Positions 18,599 through 26,094 of a stretch of DNA of 64,000 nt are shown here, piece by piece; within the stretch, counting starts at the first letter, position 1; every line of letters begins with the position of its first letter. The stretch covers positions 227,860,024 to 227,924,023 of the forward strand of contig NC_134571.1 of assembly GCF_050947875.1 (NCBI RefSeq), in the 5' to 3' direction. Origin of the DNA: Dermacentor variabilis. Its lineage: Eukaryota > Arthropoda > Arachnida > Ixodida > Ixodidae. The notes beneath the pieces are model-generated. The model saw only the letters and a program-made list of their open reading frames with translations. It did not search any database and was not told the DNA's origin. Made by a program: the position numbers and the translations under genes.

Positions 18599-19786
18599 TT
18601 AGGTTATCGCCTTCTTATTTAGAGTTGTTTTTGGGATTTTGTCCCTCTTACCGCGCTCGAGAGAGCGCATGTCCTTTGGTGTCGAGGACACCGGGGTTTT
18701 TGTTTCGACCTCCATTGCTATCTCTGAGGCGCTGGAGGACCGAGAGTTTGGCGCCGAGACACGTGTCTCGGGCCTTGGAGTGCGCTTGATCTTAGGGCCC
18801 TGCGGGACTGCTGTCTGCAGGGCCGTTGAAGAGGGCGGAGCAGTACTGACTGCTTCCACCACGGGGGCGGGAGGAGTCACTGCGGCACCACTGCGCGTGG
18901 GCTCGGAGGACTCTGGAGGCCTCTGTGACGCTGCCCCCGCCTGCGTCACATCGGCATAACTGCGTCGCGAAAGGTACGACAGTCGTTTTCTGGCTTCGAA
19001 GAACGAGATTTTTTCTTTTACAGTTAGTACAATGATCTCCTTTTCCTTTTTCCAGCATCGGCACGAACGCGAATAGGCTGGATGGTCTCCTTTACAGTTA
19101 ACACAAAATGGTGGAGAGGTGCAATGCTCAGATTGGTGATCGTTGGAGCTGCATTTAGCACAAGTTGTTTGTCCTCGGCATGCATGTGAAGCATGTCCGA
19201 ATCTTTGGCATTTGAAGCATCGTCTGGGGTTTGGGATATATGGTCTCACATTGACTTTGACATAACCGGCATCGAGAGAGGTAGGCATTACGCTTGTTCC
19301 GAAGGTGAGTATAACGTGTTTAGTGGGGATTTCTTGATGGTTTCTACGGATTACTATTCTTTGTACTTTTGTTACATTTTGTTCTTGGAAACTCTCAAGG
19401 AGTTCCTCATCACTCAGTCCAATAAAGTCTTCTTCAGATATCACTCCCCGGCTTGTGTTCAGTGTTCTATGTGGTGAAATTGTCACTGTGGCGTCGCCAA
19501 TACTGGTAAGGCCAGTGAGCTTCTCTACTTGGTCTTTATCATTCAGTTCTAGGAGGAGGTCCCCGCTAGACATTTTGGAGGCTTTGTACGTCGGTCCGAT
19601 TTTTTCTTTCAAGCATTTGGCTACAAGGAATGGTGAGAGTTTTCTTACTGGCATGTTGCTTTCGCTATGTACTACATAGTACTTGGGGAAGGATGGAGCG
19701 TTGCTCCGAAAGGAGAAATGGAATGGTACTTCGGTGCGGCATCTTTTCAGACGCCGATCACAGACGAGAGAGGTTTGCGCTGCCAT
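18599..19786 (-). CDS. I-clade LINE ORF1 (gag-like nucleic-acid-binding protein)
   Basis: This is an intact frame. I choose the Met at 19786 (MAAQTSLVCDRRLK) over the upstream Met at 19954, because the latter adds residues that look like translated leader. The predicted 395-residue protein has three zinc knuckles at about residues 190-242: CFKCQRFGHASHAC, CAKCSSNDHQSEHC, and CVNCKGDHPAYSRSC. An Ala/Pro/Ser-rich tail follows. ORF1 proteins of this kind coat the element RNA to form the ribonucleoprotein. The ORF ends 105 bp before ORF2 starts. No lesion is visible. Confidence 0.85.
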   Translation of the reverse strand: MAAQTSLVCDRRLKRCRTEVPFHFSFRSNAPSFPKYYVVHSESNMPVRKLSPFLVAKCLKEKIGPTYKASKMSSGDLLLELNDKDQVEKLTGLTSIGDATVTISPHRTLNTSRGVISEEDFIGLSDEELLESFQEQNVTKVQRIVIRRNHQEIPTKHVILTFGTSVMPTSLDAGYVKVNVRPYIPNPRRCFKCQRFGHASHACRGQTTCAKCSSNDHQSEHCTSPPFCVNCKGDHPAYSRSCRCWKKEKEIIVLTVKEKISFFEARKRLSYLSRRSYADVTQAGAASQRPPESSEPTRSGAAVTPPAPVVEAVSTAPPSSTALQTAVPQGPKIKRTPRPETRVSAPNSRSSSASEIAMEVETKTPVSSTPKDMRSLERGKRDKIPKTTLNKKAIT

Positions 19787-20307
19787 AGAAAATGAGTATG
19801 TTCGGCAACAGCGCCGACCGCCCACCACGGAGCCCAACGAGGGGACGCGGCAGAGCTTGTGTACAAGCCTGCACGACGCCAGCCGTACGCCGTCGCTATA
19901 ACCAAATATGGTGTACCCAAGGTAGGATATCCACACAAGGTTAACCCTTGCCACCGTGGAGAAAGGAAGTAAATGGAAGAGAGAAGAAGACAGGAAAGAT
20001 CGAAAAGTGAGGGATAAAGGCGAAGGTTTGGGGAGAGAGAGACAGGAAGAGGCGACTGCCGATTTCCCCCGGGTGAGTCAGTCCGGGGGTGCCGTCTACG
20101 TGAAGCAGAGGCCAAAGAGGTGTGTTGCCTCCGCCGAGGGGCCTTAAAGGTCCGAACGCCCGGCATCGGCTCAACCTCCAGGATCCCCCTTTCCCCGGAC
20201 ATGGCTAAGCCGCGCACGGCTACACGCGGGAGGGTCCAACCCTCGTGTGCTCGGGTACGTGGTGTCGCAACACACCAAACGCCTGCTGACGCAGATGCCC
20301 CTGCGGG

Positions 20308-20714
20308 GGGAACAATTGGAAGCAAAAGTTGTTTGCCTTGTCTCTGAAAGACTGCACTTGCAACTATCAGCAGAACGCATCGAACGTGCGCCTAGGTTGG
20401 GCAAATACGCCAGAGGCAAAAATAGGCCCATTATTGTCAAATTCGGCACACACAAAACTAAAGAGTTGGTCTTCTCAAAGCGCTCCCTAATTGCAGAAAG
20501 TGAGCTCACAATAAAGGAAGATTTTTCATTTGTCATGCGCATAGCATGCGAAAAGTTGAGCCAGTTCAGTAAATCACTGAACACGGCCACTAGATTAAAC
20601 CATAACAAACTTTTTGCAGGTGGGAAATGCTACGTTTATGATGCAAGTAATGATAGTGTGCATGAATGTCAGTGGCAATCCCTCTAAACTTACAGACAGT
20701 GCATGTGAGGTAGG
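20308..20714 (+). pseudogene. CR1 LINE segment 2: ORF1 C-terminal half
   Basis: The frame continues the ORF1 interrupted at 14683. LHLQLSAERIERAPRLGKYA is followed by RPIIVKFGTHKTKELVFS and ELTIKEDFSFVMRIACEKL, ending LFAGGKCYVYDASNDSVHEC near 20672. This RRM-like and C-terminal domain pattern (ERAHRLG, RPVIVKF, DFS, GGKTYVYD) is widespread in CR1/L2 and L1-like ORF1 proteins. It binds RNA as a multimer. The frame is readable throughout this piece. The BEL/Pao element begins right after it. Confidence 0.8.
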
Positions 20715-20863
20715 TGTTGAAACTCATGGGAGCGGACAAGACGAGAAAGAAGAAGACGGCAGGCTCCGAAGGCGCGCGCTAAAGAAAAATCAATAAAAAA
20801 GGAAAATAAGGAGCTTGATTTCGTTCGCATCGAACGCAGCTGTCTCGTCTCGTTTTTGCGACA
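20715..20863 (+). repeat. 5' LTR of the BEL/Pao element
   Basis: It starts TGTTGAAACTCATGGGAGCG and ends TTTTTGCGACA, giving TG...CA ends. It contains CAATAAAAAAGG near 20790-20802 as a possible polyadenylation signal. It is alignable end to end with 25172-25320 with a modest number of differences, so the insertion is not fresh. Confidence 0.85.
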
Positions 20864-20881
20864 TGGTGCCGTGACCAGGAT
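20864..20881 (+). promoter_or_regulatory. Primer-binding site region of the BEL/Pao element
   Basis: TGGTGCCGTGACCAGGAT directly abuts the 5' LTR, the required position for tRNA-primed minus-strand synthesis. TGG(T/C)GCCGTGACC is a common BEL/Pao form. The tRNA was not identified. Confidence 0.65.
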
Positions 20882-21093
20882 AGCGGCTACTCCTCTTCCG
20901 ACTGGCCACGGACTACCAGAACGATGGACTGGCCACAGAAGATGGACGAAGAGGAGGCCCGCAGGCGAAACAACGGCAGCGAGGCGACACATCGACAGCA
21001 AGGAGCAGCACAGACACAGAGGGCGACCAAGACTCCGATGACGTTTCGCCGCTAGAATCTGTAAGTGGCCAGCAGTTTCCTCAGTTAGTCAAG

Positions 21094-22456
21094 ATGAACA
21101 GAGAAGTGATTTTGAAAAAGCGAAAAACGCTGGGGACTCAAATAACCAACTTAGTGAGCGATGCTGAAAAGAAACTGGAGGAAAATCGGGATCCTGCAGC
21201 GATGTCGCTGATAGCCAGCCAGATCAAAGGTATTGCAGACTTGCTAAAGAAAGCAGACGAGCAGATGGAGCAGTTCATAACACCCGAAACAGCTGACTCG
21301 GAGTTTGCGAAAACCACTGAGTACGAGTTAAAGATAATAAGTGCTCTGCACAGCATCAACGCATACCTTTCTCCACAAGAAATATGGGAAACAGCGAGGG
21401 AGCAACCCAACTTTAATGGCGAAGCTAGACAATCGCAGCAAGCAACACTAGTGAAGCTACCAAAGCTAGAAATAATGAAGTTTGATGGCGATAAAATGAA
21501 ATGGCAGAGATTTTGGCGGCAATTTGAAACAGCTGTACACGAAAGAACCGACTTGAACGTAAATCAGAAATTTACGTATCTTCTGTCATCACTAACCGGA
21601 AAAGCGGCAGGTGTAGTGGAGGGACTAGTTTTCCGACAGTAATTATGGGAATGCCATTGACCTACTGAAGCAGAAGTACAGAAAAGATGACGTACTGGTC
21701 GAAATGCATATGAAAGAATTAACTAACTTGAATACAGTAGCAAGCTGCAATGAACATGACGGTTTAAGAAAGCTGTCACAAAAGGTGCAAGTGCACATAC
21801 GTGGATTGGAATCCTTAGGATTGAAAAGAGAGTCCTATGCATTGATGTTGCTTCTGATCTTGAAAAGAGCCTTGCCAGTGGATCTGTACATTGGATTCCA
21901 GTTAAAACAAAGAGAAGTGATCAATAGATCTTCAGCACAAGATCAGAATGTGGCTTTACGTCAAGAAGATATTCTCAGGCGCTTGATGAAATAAATAGAG
22001 GATCAGGCAGAGTGCAGAGAGGAATTGTCGACAGAAAGGACAGAAAGCTATGGCAACAGCACTGAGAGTAAGCAGCAGACAAGAACTGTTAATTTTCAAA
22101 GTATAGCTGCAAAGTTTTGCATATTTTGTGAGAATATGACTCATTTTACTGATGACTGTAGGAAAACGATGCCTTATGAAGACAAGAAAATGAAGCTCAA
22201 AGAGGCAAACAGATGTTTCCACTGTATCAGGTCCATCCATATTGCTAAAATATGTAAGGCAAACATTAGGTGCAAGATGTGTGAAAAATGCCACGCGACG
22301 TCTATGTGCCGAAGCAAAGAACTGACAGCACAGTGTACAGCATCTACTCCTGGTGAAACTGAAAATCAGGAAAACATCTACTTACCAGTTTATGAACCTC
22401 TCAAGTGTCTTTCTGCAAACTGTAGTTGCATTAGCAGAAAGCAGTCATGTTACTGA
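21094..22456 (+). pseudogene. BEL/Pao gag (two frames) with zinc knuckles
   Basis: The first frame (21094-21642) begins MNREVILKKRKTLGTQI and includes VKLPKLEIMKFDGDKMKWQR, a typical BEL capsid start (PKLELPKFDGD..W..F). After a stop or frameshift at about 21640 it continues with NAIDLLKQKY and the helical capsid part (about 21655-21990). It ends with Cys/His clusters (CIFCENMTHFTDDC, CFHCIRSIHIAKIC, CKMCEKCHATSMC; about 22115-22310). Gag proteins form the particle and bind the RNA. The frame breaks at least twice, so no full gag is made. Just downstream the protease begins (an LQT...VLLD motif near 22410-22470) and is then lost. Confidence 0.8.
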
Positions 22457-22465
22457 TGTGTTCTG

Positions 22466-23360
22466 CTGGACGTCAAGGCAAGCCTCGAGGAGCAGTATTC
22501 TCAGGAGAAAACAGCACTCCTCTCTGAGCAGGTGGCACGTACCAAGGAGCTGCTGAGCAAGCATCGGGAAGAAGTGGAGCAACTGGAGAAAACTGTGGAG
22601 GCAAGGCTAGCAGACGAGTGGCGACGCCTGACGGAAGAGCTGGACGTCCTCCTTTGCAGCCTCAGGGAAAAGGAACAGGCTTTTAGCCGGTCTGCCAACA
22701 AACAGCAAGTGAAGGCTTCTGCTGAAATGGCAGAGCTTATCAACAAACACGGTGAAGAGGTCCAAAAACTGTCCTTTGCCCTCGAGGAAGAGCAGAAAAA
22801 GACAAGAGTCACTCTGCAATGCACTTGATTCAGTCAAGAAAGAAAGGGACAAAATCGTAGAGCTTGCAGAGAGCATCACAAGGGCCAGCTCGGACTCGGC
22901 AGTTGACCCAAGCACTGCAATCAGACGACTTGCAGAAGAGAATGCAACGTTGCGACGAGAGGCGGAAGCAGCACGCGCCGAATATGAGTCTATGCTCTCT
23001 GAGGAGAAGTCTAGGCTGAAAGATGAAGTGGAGACTGTTCGTGCAGAGTACGAGTCTACACTGCAGAATCTTGAGGAGAAGCTCCAAGGGACTGAGGTCG
23101 ACCCCATGAGACATCTGGAGGAACTGCTTGCAAACCAGGAGCAGTACCAGGAAGAAGTGAAGTTGAAAGACGAAAAGCTACTTCTACTGAAGCACGAAGT
23201 GGAGCAGTACGCTGACACGCTTAATTCGCAAAGGCTGGAGTATGGCCAGGAGCTGGAAAATATTGAGCGAAGTCTGGAGGCCAAGCACACTGCCGAGATC
23301 AAGTCACTAAAGTCAGAGCACAGGGAAAACGTTGAGGTGCTGAGAGAGAGTCTGCAATGA
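22466..23360 (+). pseudogene. Captured coiled-coil coding segment replacing PR-RT-RNase H
   Basis: Directly after the VLLD of the BEL protease, the frame continues as a heptad-rich, Glu/Lys/Arg/Leu-rich coiled coil (LEEQYSQEKTALLSEQV ... HREEVEQLEKTVEARLADEW). One frameshift near 22815 follows, and the segment ends with KSEHRENVEVLRESLQ. It has almost no Cys, no retroviral motif and no intron. The composition matches long cytoskeletal, golgin or endosomal coiled-coil proteins, but I cannot name the source gene. The first clear integrase sequence (HHIHQLTLHGG) starts about 20 bp later. I infer that cellular mRNA was joined into the element during reverse transcription. A processed pseudogene insertion followed by deletion of pol is the alternative. 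Confidence 0.65.
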
Positions 23361-23804
23361 GAGCTGCTGGTACACCATATTCATCAACTCACGCTGCATG
23401 GAGGAATAAGCGTCACATTATCTAAGTACTGGATAATACAAGAAAGACAGCTGGTGAAGAAGATAATTCATGGATGGCTGAAGTGCCAACGATTTGACGC
23501 CAGACCGCTGCACCAAGAAACAGCCCCACTTCCTGCTGACAGAGTCAACGAGCGACAACCATTTGAAGCGATTAGTGTGGATTTCGCGGGTCCGTTACTT
23601 ATAAAAGACACGATAGAAAGCACTACAACACAGTATGTCAGAATATTTGTATGTGTTACTACACGAGCTGAGCATCTCTAAATTGTGGACAACACGACAA
23701 GAGAAGCATTCTTACATGCATTCCGAAGATTTACAGCGAGACGAGGGCTATGTTACACATTTACAGTGACAACGCAAGGACATTCAAGAAGGCCAACAGA
23801 GATT
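23361..23804 (+). pseudogene. BEL/Pao integrase, zinc-binding and core part
   Basis: The reading shows HHIHQLTLHGG...KYWI (the HHCC-type N-terminal region), LVKKIIHGWLKCQRFDARP, then the RNase H-fold core beginning FEAISVDFAGPLLIK (first catalytic Asp) and IFVCVTTRAEHL. It continues through a frame change to the SDNARTFKKANRD-like site at about 23765-23800 (second catalytic Asp), where the SINE cluster interrupts it. The first Cys of the expected C-x2-C pair appears replaced. Integrase would insert the cDNA into chromosomes. This copy is inactive. Confidence 0.8.
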
Positions 23805-23953
23805 GACGTAGTAGTTCTGCGGAAACCCGCAAGGTGGAGAGAAGCAATGTATAAAGGGAAAATGAGACATCCACCCGTTTTGTAGCAATTGCTACAAAGG
23901 AATCCCATACGGGTTCCTCGAAAGAAAAGCCTCATAGTTGAAGAAAAATTCCT

Positions 23954-24024
23954 CCTGGTCCGGGACTCGAACCCGGGACCACCGCCTTTCCGGGGCAGCC
24001 GCTCTACCATCTGAGCTAACCAGG
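23954..24024 (-). promoter_or_regulatory. tRNA-like head with RNA polymerase III boxes, SINE unit 1
   Basis: On the minus strand it contains TAGCTCAGATGGTAGAGC (A box and D-arm) and GGTTCGAGTCC, a perfect B box. The ends CCTGGTT and ACCAGG can pair as an acceptor stem, and a five-pair stem (CTGCC/GGCGG) flanks the CCGGAAA loop. It folds like a tRNA but sits inside a 282-bp repeat and has no independent context, so I treat it as a SINE promoter, not a tRNA gene. Confidence 0.75.
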
Positions 24025-24235
24025 CGGCTAGCAGATGGTAGGGCGAAGTCGAATTCGTCGACAACACGAAGCAAAGGCAAGAGTTTGACGTAGTAGTTCT
24101 GCGGAAACCCGCAAGGTGGAGAGAAGCAATGTATAAAGGGAAAATGAGACATCCACCCGTTTTGTAGCAATTGCTACAAAGGAATCCCATACGGGTTCCT
24201 CGAAAGAAAAGCCTCATAGTTGAAGAAAAATTCGT

Positions 24236-24306
24236 CCTGGTCTGGGACTCGAACCCGGGACCACCGCCTTTCCGGGGCAGCCGCTCTACCATCTGAGCTA
24301 ACCAGG
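24236..24306 (-). promoter_or_regulatory. tRNA-like head with RNA polymerase III boxes, SINE unit 2
   Basis: This is the same structure as 23954-24024, exactly 282 bp downstream, with a T for C change in the acceptor region. A third head at about 24518-24530 is cut off before its B box by the inverted junction. Confidence 0.75.
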
Positions 24307-24609
24307 CGGCTAGCAGATGGTAGGGCGAAGTCGAATTTGTCGACAACACGAAGCAAATGCAAGAGTTTGACGTAGTAGTTCTGCGGAAACCCGCAAGGTG
24401 GAGAGAAGCAATGTATAAAGGGAAAATGAGACATCCACCCGTTTTGTAGCAATTGCTACAAAGGAATCCCATACGGGTTCCTCGAAAGAAAAGCCTCATA
24501 GTTGAAGAAAAATTCGTCCTGGTCCGGGACTTTTCTTTCGAGGAACCCGTATGGGATTCCTTTGTAGCAATTGCTACAAACGGGTGGATGTCTCATTTTC
24601 CCTTTATAC

Positions 24610-25145
24610 AAGGCCAACAGAGACATCAATCGTATGATTAAAGAACTACAGGAAGAAGTCTCCAAAAGAGCAAGCCAAGGAGATCAAATCAAATGGAAGT
24701 ACAGTGTTGAACAAGCGCCTTTGTGGGGAGGCTTTTATGAAAGGATGGTACGAAGCACGAAATCAGCAATGAGGAAAGTTATTGGAAAAAGACTTATCAA
24801 GAGAAGAGATGCAAACAATAACAATTGAAGTTGAAGCATAGAACAAATGTGGAAAAATAAGCAAAGTGAAAGATCACGAAAGATTGGTGGAAAAGATGAA
24901 ACAAGGAATATTTAAAAGAACTGAGAGAGCAGAGTAACGAAAGAAAGCAAGAAATGACAGTGAACCAAGGAGATATCATTTTGATCGGCGCACGCACTCC
25001 TAGATCTTTCTGGAACCTGGCTAAGGTCACTGAAGTATATTCTGAAGTCGACGCGAAGCCGCGCTACTTTCTGTTAAAAACGAAAGAACTCGCTCGGAGA
25101 CCTGTGCAACATCTCTACACAATTGAAGGCTGCTTCAAATCATGA
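24610..25145 (+). pseudogene. BEL/Pao integrase C-terminal part
   Basis: The core resumes with KANRDINRMIKELQEEV and then YSVEQAPLWGGFYERMVRST (about 24695-24760), the conserved BEL integrase WxG..ER.(V/I)RS block with the third acidic site nearby. After a frame change comes the BEL-specific C-terminal domain (GDIILIGARTPRSFWNLAKV ... RPVQHLYTIEG), ending at the stop 25143-25145. The 3' LTR follows 26 bp later. That C-terminal domain is what separates BEL/Pao from Gypsy. Confidence 0.8.
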
Positions 25146-25171
25146 GAAGAAAACTTTTCACGGCTGGGTGC

Positions 25172-25320
25172 TGTTGAAACTCATAGGAGCGGACAAGACG
25201 AGAAAGAAGAAGACGGCGGGCTCCGAAGGCGCGCGCTAAGAAAAAACCAATAAAAAAGGAATAAAAGAAGATTGATTTCGTTCGCATTGAACGCAGCTGC
25301 TTCGTCTCGTTTCTGCAACA
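25172..25320 (+). repeat. 3' LTR of the BEL/Pao element
   Basis: TGTTGAAACTCATAGGAGCG ... TTCTGCAACA is 149 bp like the 5' LTR. The GGCTGGGTGC stretch before it would hold the polypurine tract but is a poor one. Confidence 0.85.
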
Positions 25321-26094
25321 GTAGCATCATCTTCTCGAGCTTCAGATAATGTCCCTCTTTCACCTAGGTCGACGCATTCTGGTCGCTTACACACCTCTAA
25401 AAATAATTTGGACAATGCGAGGGGTGGCGGCCACTTGCTTACTGCAACTGCACTCTACACTAACATCCATAGCCTTTACATGAAAAAAGACAGCCTCAAC
25501 GTTCTAATAAATGATTGATGAGTGGATACTGTAATACTAATAATACTGTCGAGTAAAATAAAAAATAGTGAATTGTTTCAGTGTAACAAACAGGTTGTTG
25601 TGTACCGATGTGACCGTGGCGATAAAATGGGCGATGGCGTTCCGATTGCAGTGAACGAGAATTTCACATGCCTTTCGATTCCAACAATTAGCAGTTTGGA
25701 AATAATTTGGTGTTGCTTAACCATTAATATTAAAAAATTATTCTTGGCATTTGCTATTGTTCACCAAGCTATGCTAGCAGTTCTTTCTGAGCTGCTACAT
25801 GATTTTCTGAATGCAGTAATTGTACAGTTTCCAGAAGTGCCTATTTTGCTTGTTGCCGATTTTAATTTTGCACACATGCAATGGTCAGAACCTTGCCCCT
25901 TTCCCGACCCATCGTCTGTAGAAGCTATCAGTTTCTTTAACATTTGTTTAGATTTCCATCTGTCTTAACCCATTTCTCAGCCGACACGTGTGACACTCAC
26001 CACAGCATCACTACTCAATTTGGTACCAACATCAGCTCAAGATACCACCTCATCTGTAACACACACACCTGGATTGAGCGATCATGATGTACAA
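25321..26094 (+). pseudogene. CR1 LINE segment 3: endonuclease domain
   Basis: Plus-strand reading after the BEL element: NNLDNARGGGHLLTATALYT, then VVVYRCDRGDKMGDGVPIAV (about 25590-25660), ISSLEIIWCCLTINIKKLFL, PILLVADFNFAHMQWSEP (about 25840-25900), and finally a GLSDHDVQYLL block near 26075-26100. These are the GDFN and SDH landmarks of the LINE apurinic-type endonuclease, here with ADFN. Stops and frame changes make it inactive. Confidence 0.75.

Follow-up and report, generated by a model that had tools for sequence, protein, structure and literature searches.

Apparent capture of a spliced host coiled-coil mRNA by a BEL/Pao retrotransposon family in the tick Dermacentor variabilis

Acute transforming retroviruses carry host coding sequence that replaces viral genes in frame with gag, and they need a helper; the maize element Bs1 is a long terminal repeat (LTR) element that holds pieces of host genes and has no reverse transcriptase (RT). 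In metazoans, LTR-mediated retroposition was reportedly described by Tan et al. in Genome Res. in 2016. The process, in which a spliced host mRNA is joined to LTR-element cDNA at short matches, is cited in PMC5408686, PMC8232201 and PMC9674220, while Bs1 is cited in PMC5408686 and in PMC7264820, a review of plant LTR elements that speaks of transduced genes in one or few copies. For Pxyfem of the moth Plutella xylostella, PMC9674220 proposes that a template switch linked an LTR element to a spliced host mRNA, the two sharing a short sequence where they join. Here we analyse a stretch of 64,000 nucleotides of the tick Dermacentor variabilis (contig NC_134571.1, forward-strand positions 227,860,024 to 227,924,023; hereafter the window), in which a BEL/Pao element carries a host coiled-coil segment that very probably stems from capture of a spliced mRNA by template switching.

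Positions 20715-25320 of the window are a decayed BEL/Pao element in the order LTR, gag, coiled coil (CC), integrase, LTR, read on the plus strand. It is bordered by a target-site duplication identical in four of five bases (left GTAGG, 20710..20714; right GTAGC, 25321-25325), and its 5′ and 3′ LTRs (20715..20863 and 25172..25320), each 149 bp long, are 91% identical, with 14 mismatches in 149 positions and a distance of 0.100. Directly after the 5′ LTR, at 20864, begins TGGTGCCGTGACC, which we read by eye as the primer-binding site. Gag occupies 21094..22456 in three broken pieces (21094-21642, 21704-21994 and 22025-22456), the first two of which match DUF1759 in Pfam (1.4e-13, and 7.2e-4, the latter under the cut-off). 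The CC spans 22463-23370 with the ambiguous joint bases counted in, and is followed at 23371..25145 by an interrupted integrase remnant and C-terminal region, of which 24954-25145 matches DUF5641 at 2.1e-4, 1.2 bits below the cut-off. DUF1759 and DUF5641 are domains that we take to be linked to BEL/Pao elements, and LTRs with target duplications of about 5 bp are a further BEL/Pao trait found here; the Pao peptidase domain (PF05380) is absent from the window and present on a related element, L034. The place of RT and RNase H is taken by the CC in the alignments of the window copy and of 13 other copies with both joints, and we file the element as a non-autonomous BEL/Pao derivative. A first-pass annotation of the window had already named a BEL/Pao element with 149-bp LTRs, gag, a coiled coil and integrase, and the LTR identity and domain matches bear this out. 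It had also placed a continuous coiled coil at 22466-23360; the extent is nearly exact, but the continuity does not stand, as a 1-nt insertion breaks the frame into 22466-22828 and 22824-23360, and TGA codons lie between gag and CC (22454-22456) and ahead of the 3′ joint (23358-23360).

What the CC replaced can be read from relatives that retain pol. The genome of D. variabilis yielded 762 gag candidates, of which the best 150 were scored and all 150 matched, many of them away from CC loci. Downstream of gag, six of eight sampled loci without CC run past 22470 into protease-type sequence instead of CC, the other two (L030 and L032) being uninformative at the position of the 5′ joint. Two of these relatives, L034 and L036, match the window up to 22471 and again from 23362, with approximately 2.66 kb lying in between, and a third, L037, rejoins the window sequence further downstream. 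L034 carries matches to Pao peptidase (5.5e-44) and Integrase_H2C2 (1.1e-9), together with matches under the cut-off to rve, RVT_1 and aspartyl protease, and both L034 and L036 end in LTRs that are 78-82% like the 5′ LTR of the window copy. As judged from these alignments, the CC stands in place of a protease-RT-RNase H stretch of approximately 2.66 kb, RNase H being placed there by the usual BEL/Pao order and not by a domain match.

The parent of the segment is a host gene at locus L018, on contig C2 (the window lies on C4), where the CC occurs alone, without element sequence, and is split by an intron whose ends are, by eye, GT..AG. This intron is missing, and removed exactly, in all of the elements whose alignments cover the splice point; the exact removal of one intron indicates that the captured template was a spliced mRNA. 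From it the element took an inner portion of about 0.9 kb, drawn from two adjoining exons, starting inside exon A and ending inside exon B; in the parent, the exon reads on past this end within an open frame of 470 aa. The parent has an orthologue in D. silvarum, a 1,088-aa protein that shows 92% identity over 469 aa and crosses the same splice point; further exon pieces of this protein were located by eye in L029, L018 and L028. Among Rhipicephalus relatives of the parent, several extend beyond the captured boundary. Pfam gave no match above the cut-off on five stretches of the parent (FAM184 at E 0.29 only) and none at E 0.01 for the D. silvarum orthologue, which carries the precomputed database entry PF27598.1, and a search of solved structures returned no match. 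One R. microplus relative is labelled FAM184A-like; we refer to the parent simply as a large coiled-coil gene and give it no finer identity. R. microplus has several divergent proteins related to the parent gene (P0005, P0006, P0007, P0008, P0010 and P0011), some with unrelated N-terminal parts, that of P0006 being similar by eye to that of P0007, which may mean that repeated copying or capture of the parent gene has taken place in ticks.

The window copy is one of many. The CC matches at least 20 loci of the D. variabilis genome at the DNA level, window and parent included; as this search scores the best candidates only, locus counts are minimum values. When the second CC piece was searched as protein, 119 of 119 candidates were scored and no further locus appeared at E below 1e-5. 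The non-parental loci thus number at least 19, the window and 18 others that we fetched, and 14 of these 19 (window included) hold gag, CC and integrase in order. Because 13 of the 18 other non-parental loci show this arrangement again, chance is excluded as its source. Three of the remaining loci have the 3′ joint only (L020, L023 and L025), one has the 5′ joint only (L026), and one is internally deleted and retains neither (L027). LTR pairs were detected in 11 of the 19 elements, with LTR distances ranging from 0.021 to 0.154 across the family. Target duplications are perfect (5/5) in seven of these and 4/5 in three, among them the window copy, while the remaining element, in which an LTR is truncated, has none. 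In L022 and L024 the duplication and the flanks are the same, which leaves six distinct perfect duplications, and the differing duplications show that the insertions were independent.

Several further features of the copies were seen. The bases flanking L022 (C6, 53.14 Mb) and L024 (C6, 53.62 Mb) are near-identical, pointing to a segmental duplication approximately 0.48 Mb apart, and these are the two copies least similar to the parent. A stretch of about 12 bp soon past the 3′ joint is present in nine copies (L010, L014-L017, L020-L022 and L024) and in both pol-bearing relatives, and missing in L009, L011-L013, L019, L023, L025 and the window copy, and so marks subfamilies. L011, matched by its sequence (by eye), is annotated as the D. 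variabilis gene LOC142578512, whose predicted protein (P0003) joins gag zinc knuckles to the captured CC in one frame.

Comparison of these sequences places the breakpoints with a precision of a few bases. At the 5′ joint, L034 has TTCTGCTGGACACTGG where the parent has AGCTGCTGGACGTCAAGGCTGG; the elements, small differences aside, show TTCTGCTGGACGTCAAGGC followed by exon A; at the 3′ joint, the corresponding sequences are AAAGCTGCTGGTACG for L034, GAGAGCTGCTGGACG for the parent and GAGAGCTGCTGGTAC, again with small differences, for the elements. At each outer joint L034 and the parent agree over nine bases, CTGCTGGAC at the protease start of L034 (22463..22471 in the window, plus strand) and AGCTGCTGG at the other end (23362..23370, plus strand). 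In 400,000 random draws of breakpoints between the L034 and parent sequences, a match of at least nine bases was found at a frequency of 6.5e-5. The motif CTGCTGG occurs once in 1,614 nt of the parent; in 3,601 nt of L034 it is present two times, once at each breakpoint, 2.68 kb apart. There is also a third, internal joint: the 17 nt that precede exon A (22463..22479) correspond to the parent's 3′ joint site and the bases directly downstream of it, and are thus re-ordered relative to the parent. The captured exon A piece follows at 22480..22531, preceded by three bases, GGC, common to both parent sites, which are alike in 17 of 21 bases (by eye); the exact splice point lies at 22531..22532, and the exon B piece at 22532..23370, all on the plus strand. 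All three joints keep the reading frame (VLLD-VK, VK-ASLEEQ and RELL-VHHIHQLTLHGG, by eye). The 5′ joint is of one type in all 13 rows shown (L014 and L021 are not among them) and the 3′ joint in all 17, which indicates a single capture event. The joint sequences shown contain no poly(A), and no target duplication of its own surrounds the CC insert.

These structures suggest the following path, which we consider likely in its exact three-switch form. A BEL/Pao element would have packaged, or met inside a particle, the spliced mRNA of the host coiled-coil gene, and during minus-strand DNA synthesis the RT would have changed template three times. A first switch, through the nine-base match AGCTGCTGG, would have led from the integrase start of the element RNA onto the mRNA; a second would have led from exon A back to exon B, where a similar stretch lies; and a third, 17 nt later, would have led through CTGCTGGAC from the mRNA onto the element RNA at its protease start. 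The product would have held gag, an in-frame CC and in-frame integrase and lacked protease, RT and RNase H; pol-bearing relatives would then have provided, in trans, the enzymes by which it was copied to many sites. Each match lies on the side already copied in minus-strand synthesis, as template switching predicts, though plus-strand events would look alike. An intron-containing parent with an intronless copy and short matches at the joints without poly(A) are traits of LTR-mediated transduction, and we infer that the chimera formed during reverse transcription in particles. Several points weigh against this account. Three switches in one event make a complex path, and a joined or circular copy of the parent opened at CTGCTGG would give the same result. 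The full nine-base match is found at both breakpoints in L034 only: L036 has CTGCTGG at the 5′ breakpoint and one mismatch at the 3′ breakpoint, and the 5′ CTGCTGGAC is intact in three of the six relatives shown (L031, L034 and L036), one base off in L033 and L035 and two in L037. Mobilisation in trans, like the switching and its order, is inferred.

A circular or tandemly joined parent segment, such as a circular RNA, opened at CTGCTGG would need only two template switches and would bring the 17 nt that in the parent lie downstream to a place before the exon A piece, just as is seen; the review PMC5408686 mentions retrocopies of circular RNA adjoining LTRs in mouse. The internal joint, however, coincides with no known exon border and by eye lacks a GT..AG pair, and the 17/21 similarity found there makes a switch the simpler cause. 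We therefore hold a circular intermediate, which is a variant of capture by template switching and not an exclusive alternative to it, to be unlikely. The same 17 nt are left unexplained if a processed pseudogene made by a long interspersed element (LINE) had landed in an intact BEL element that later lost protease, RT and RNase H by deletion. The insert is intronless, and CTGCTGG on either side could pass for a target duplication, yet the flanking motif belongs to two sites of L034 2.68 kb apart and to the parent itself, the joints shown have no poly(A), and the segment begins within exon A and stops within exon B instead of reaching an mRNA 3′ end, so that this course of events is very improbable. 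The reverse direction, with the CC as an ancestral or normal domain of the BEL lineage from which the host gene took it, would fit a family that is multi-copy and, by its LTR distances, of varied age. It is hardly credible given that the six informative non-CC gag loci of the eight sampled have protease-type sequence after gag, and that the host gene has multiple exons, an orthologue in D. silvarum and Rhipicephalus relatives, several of which reach beyond the captured boundary. The first-pass annotation had held that the insert is intronless and that it replaces protease, RT and RNase H, which the exactly missing intron of L018 and the 2.66 kb of L034 and L036 corroborate. As checks it had proposed searches for an intron-containing parent and for other BEL copies with the same two joints, both of which are found; a CC confined to the window with its own target duplication and poly(A), or one normal to the BEL lineage, it had named as contrary outcomes, and neither was seen. 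Capture during reverse transcription, its proposed cause, gains from the exact splicing and the joint microhomology, and is still read from sequence.

Does the captured CC serve the element? The three in-frame joints would suit a functional domain, for example one that adds to Gag multimerisation, and so would the frame that is open across the 5′ joint in the six copies examined of the 15 with this joint (26-512 codons upstream and 49-517 downstream), that of L009 running from gag through CC into integrase; the single predicted frame of P0003 is a further point in favour. We compared variants shared between copies with those seen in single copies, using 13 copies. This set excludes L024, a segmental duplicate of L022, as well as L026, L020, L023, L025 and L027, which lack much of gag or CC, and the counts are uncorrected for relatedness of the copies. 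In gag, variants present in at least three of the 13 copies comprise 29 synonymous to 30 non-synonymous changes, against 122 to 391 among singletons (p=7.4e-5). In the CC the respective counts are 10 to 41 and 89 to 195 (p=0.098), so that shared CC variants are, if anything, richer in replacements than CC singletons, quite unlike gag. The two regions differ at p=0.016, 0.0014 and 0.010 when sharing is defined by 2, 3 and 4 copies, respectively. Pairwise dN/dS medians are close, at 0.66 for CC (136 pairs, 17 copies) and 0.56 for gag (105 pairs, 15 copies); the dN/dS of copies against the parent, 0.22-0.46 in 18 copies, was not relied on, since constraint acting on the parent itself enters into it. 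None of the 51 CC variants shared by at least three of the 13 copies is a stop, which is weakly compatible with selection for an open frame only; in another count, 0 stops of 56 has a probability of 0.067 under neutrality. In a wider count, with the CC of 17 copies polarised by the parent, singletons comprise 99 synonymous changes, 218 non-synonymous changes and 22 stops, and shared variants 42, 95 and 3 (3 stops in 140); changes in nearly all copies number 21, 11 and 0, a class that mixes changes of the parent with those of the element. The window copy, moreover, has stops at both ends of its CC. The simplest reading is that gag was constrained in the lineage that gave rise to the copies and the CC was not, although the gag signal could in part reflect recombination with pol-bearing relatives in place of selection in the hybrid. 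A function of the CC in the element is thus improbable, and the captured segment is probably a passenger. Elements without RT multiply only with help, and the pol-bearing relatives with related LTRs, gag and integrase are its likely source. There is a small chance that the host CC has been carried across Dermacentor as a working part of a Gag-CC-integrase polyprotein; if so, a retrotransposon would have gained a host structural domain while depending on enzymes from its relatives, as if a transducing retrovirus had turned into a stable, inherited family.

A D. albipictus protein begins with MLLSCLLDVKASLEEQ, has the same 5′ joint, with preceding residues that fit element DNA (by eye), and carries a glycine found in 13 of 14 element rows where both the D. 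variabilis and the D. silvarum parent have serine. Because D. albipictus shares the 5′ joint, the capture is older than the split between D. variabilis and D. albipictus, provided that the element did not pass from one species to the other. At the 17 residues that differ between the D. variabilis parent and its D. silvarum orthologue, the elements have the D. silvarum state at eight, the D. variabilis state at seven and a mixed one at two (16 element rows, 75% rule, no rate assumed). The capture probably occurred near or before the split from D. silvarum, with which these residue states fit while leaving the order unfixed.

Two other features of the window were noted. The integrase of the window copy is interrupted by a later insertion at about 23798..24609 on the minus strand, bordered by a 14-nt duplication and unseen in the other element copies aligned across that point. 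It is built of tandem units of 282 bp, contains two stretches like tRNA-Ser (anticodon GGA, minus strand) as well as long inverted parts, and resembles a short interspersed element (SINE). Outside of the element, a 451-aa open frame on the minus strand at 18599-19954 has CCHC-type knuckles (by eye) and resembles LINE ORF1; it has no Pfam match at E 0.01.

The process that we invoke is already known from LTR-mediated retroposition, maize Bs1 and oncogene transduction. As in acute transforming retroviruses, to which the first-pass annotation had likened it, the tick element holds host coding sequence in frame with gag; the likeness is one of structure, and the element gives no sign of infection or of an effect of the captured piece on the cell. 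It differs from Bs1 in being a BEL/Pao element with at least 19 loci that concern one gene, with the parent and the pol-bearing relatives both in hand. In LTR-mediated retroposition, too, spliced host mRNA is joined to element cDNA at short matches, whereas the tick hybrid kept its LTRs and gag, lost protease, RT and RNase H and multiplied, and one motif serves the parent site and both element sites. The template switch with a short shared joint sequence proposed in PMC9674220 for Pxyfem is similar; Pxyfem, however, is described in that source as forming W-linked tandem clusters with small RNAs against the parent, whereas the tick copies have their own target duplications and lie on several contigs. 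The one or few copies of the plant transductions in PMC7264820 likewise contrast with the at least 19 tick loci. In searches of open-licence literature, no title among those listed reports capture of a host gene by a tick BEL/Pao element. New here are the setting in a BEL/Pao element, the presence of parent, relatives and copies as a complete set, and the proposed three-switch path. Host-gene capture by reverse-transcribing elements is usually inferred from a single product; here, the parent, pol-bearing relatives and many hybrids are found in one genome, and a 7-nt motif, CTGCTGG, accounts for both outer joints. The finding bears on annotation pipelines, which list element copies as genes (LOC142578512), and on how a retrovirus-like transduction can turn into a lasting non-autonomous family.

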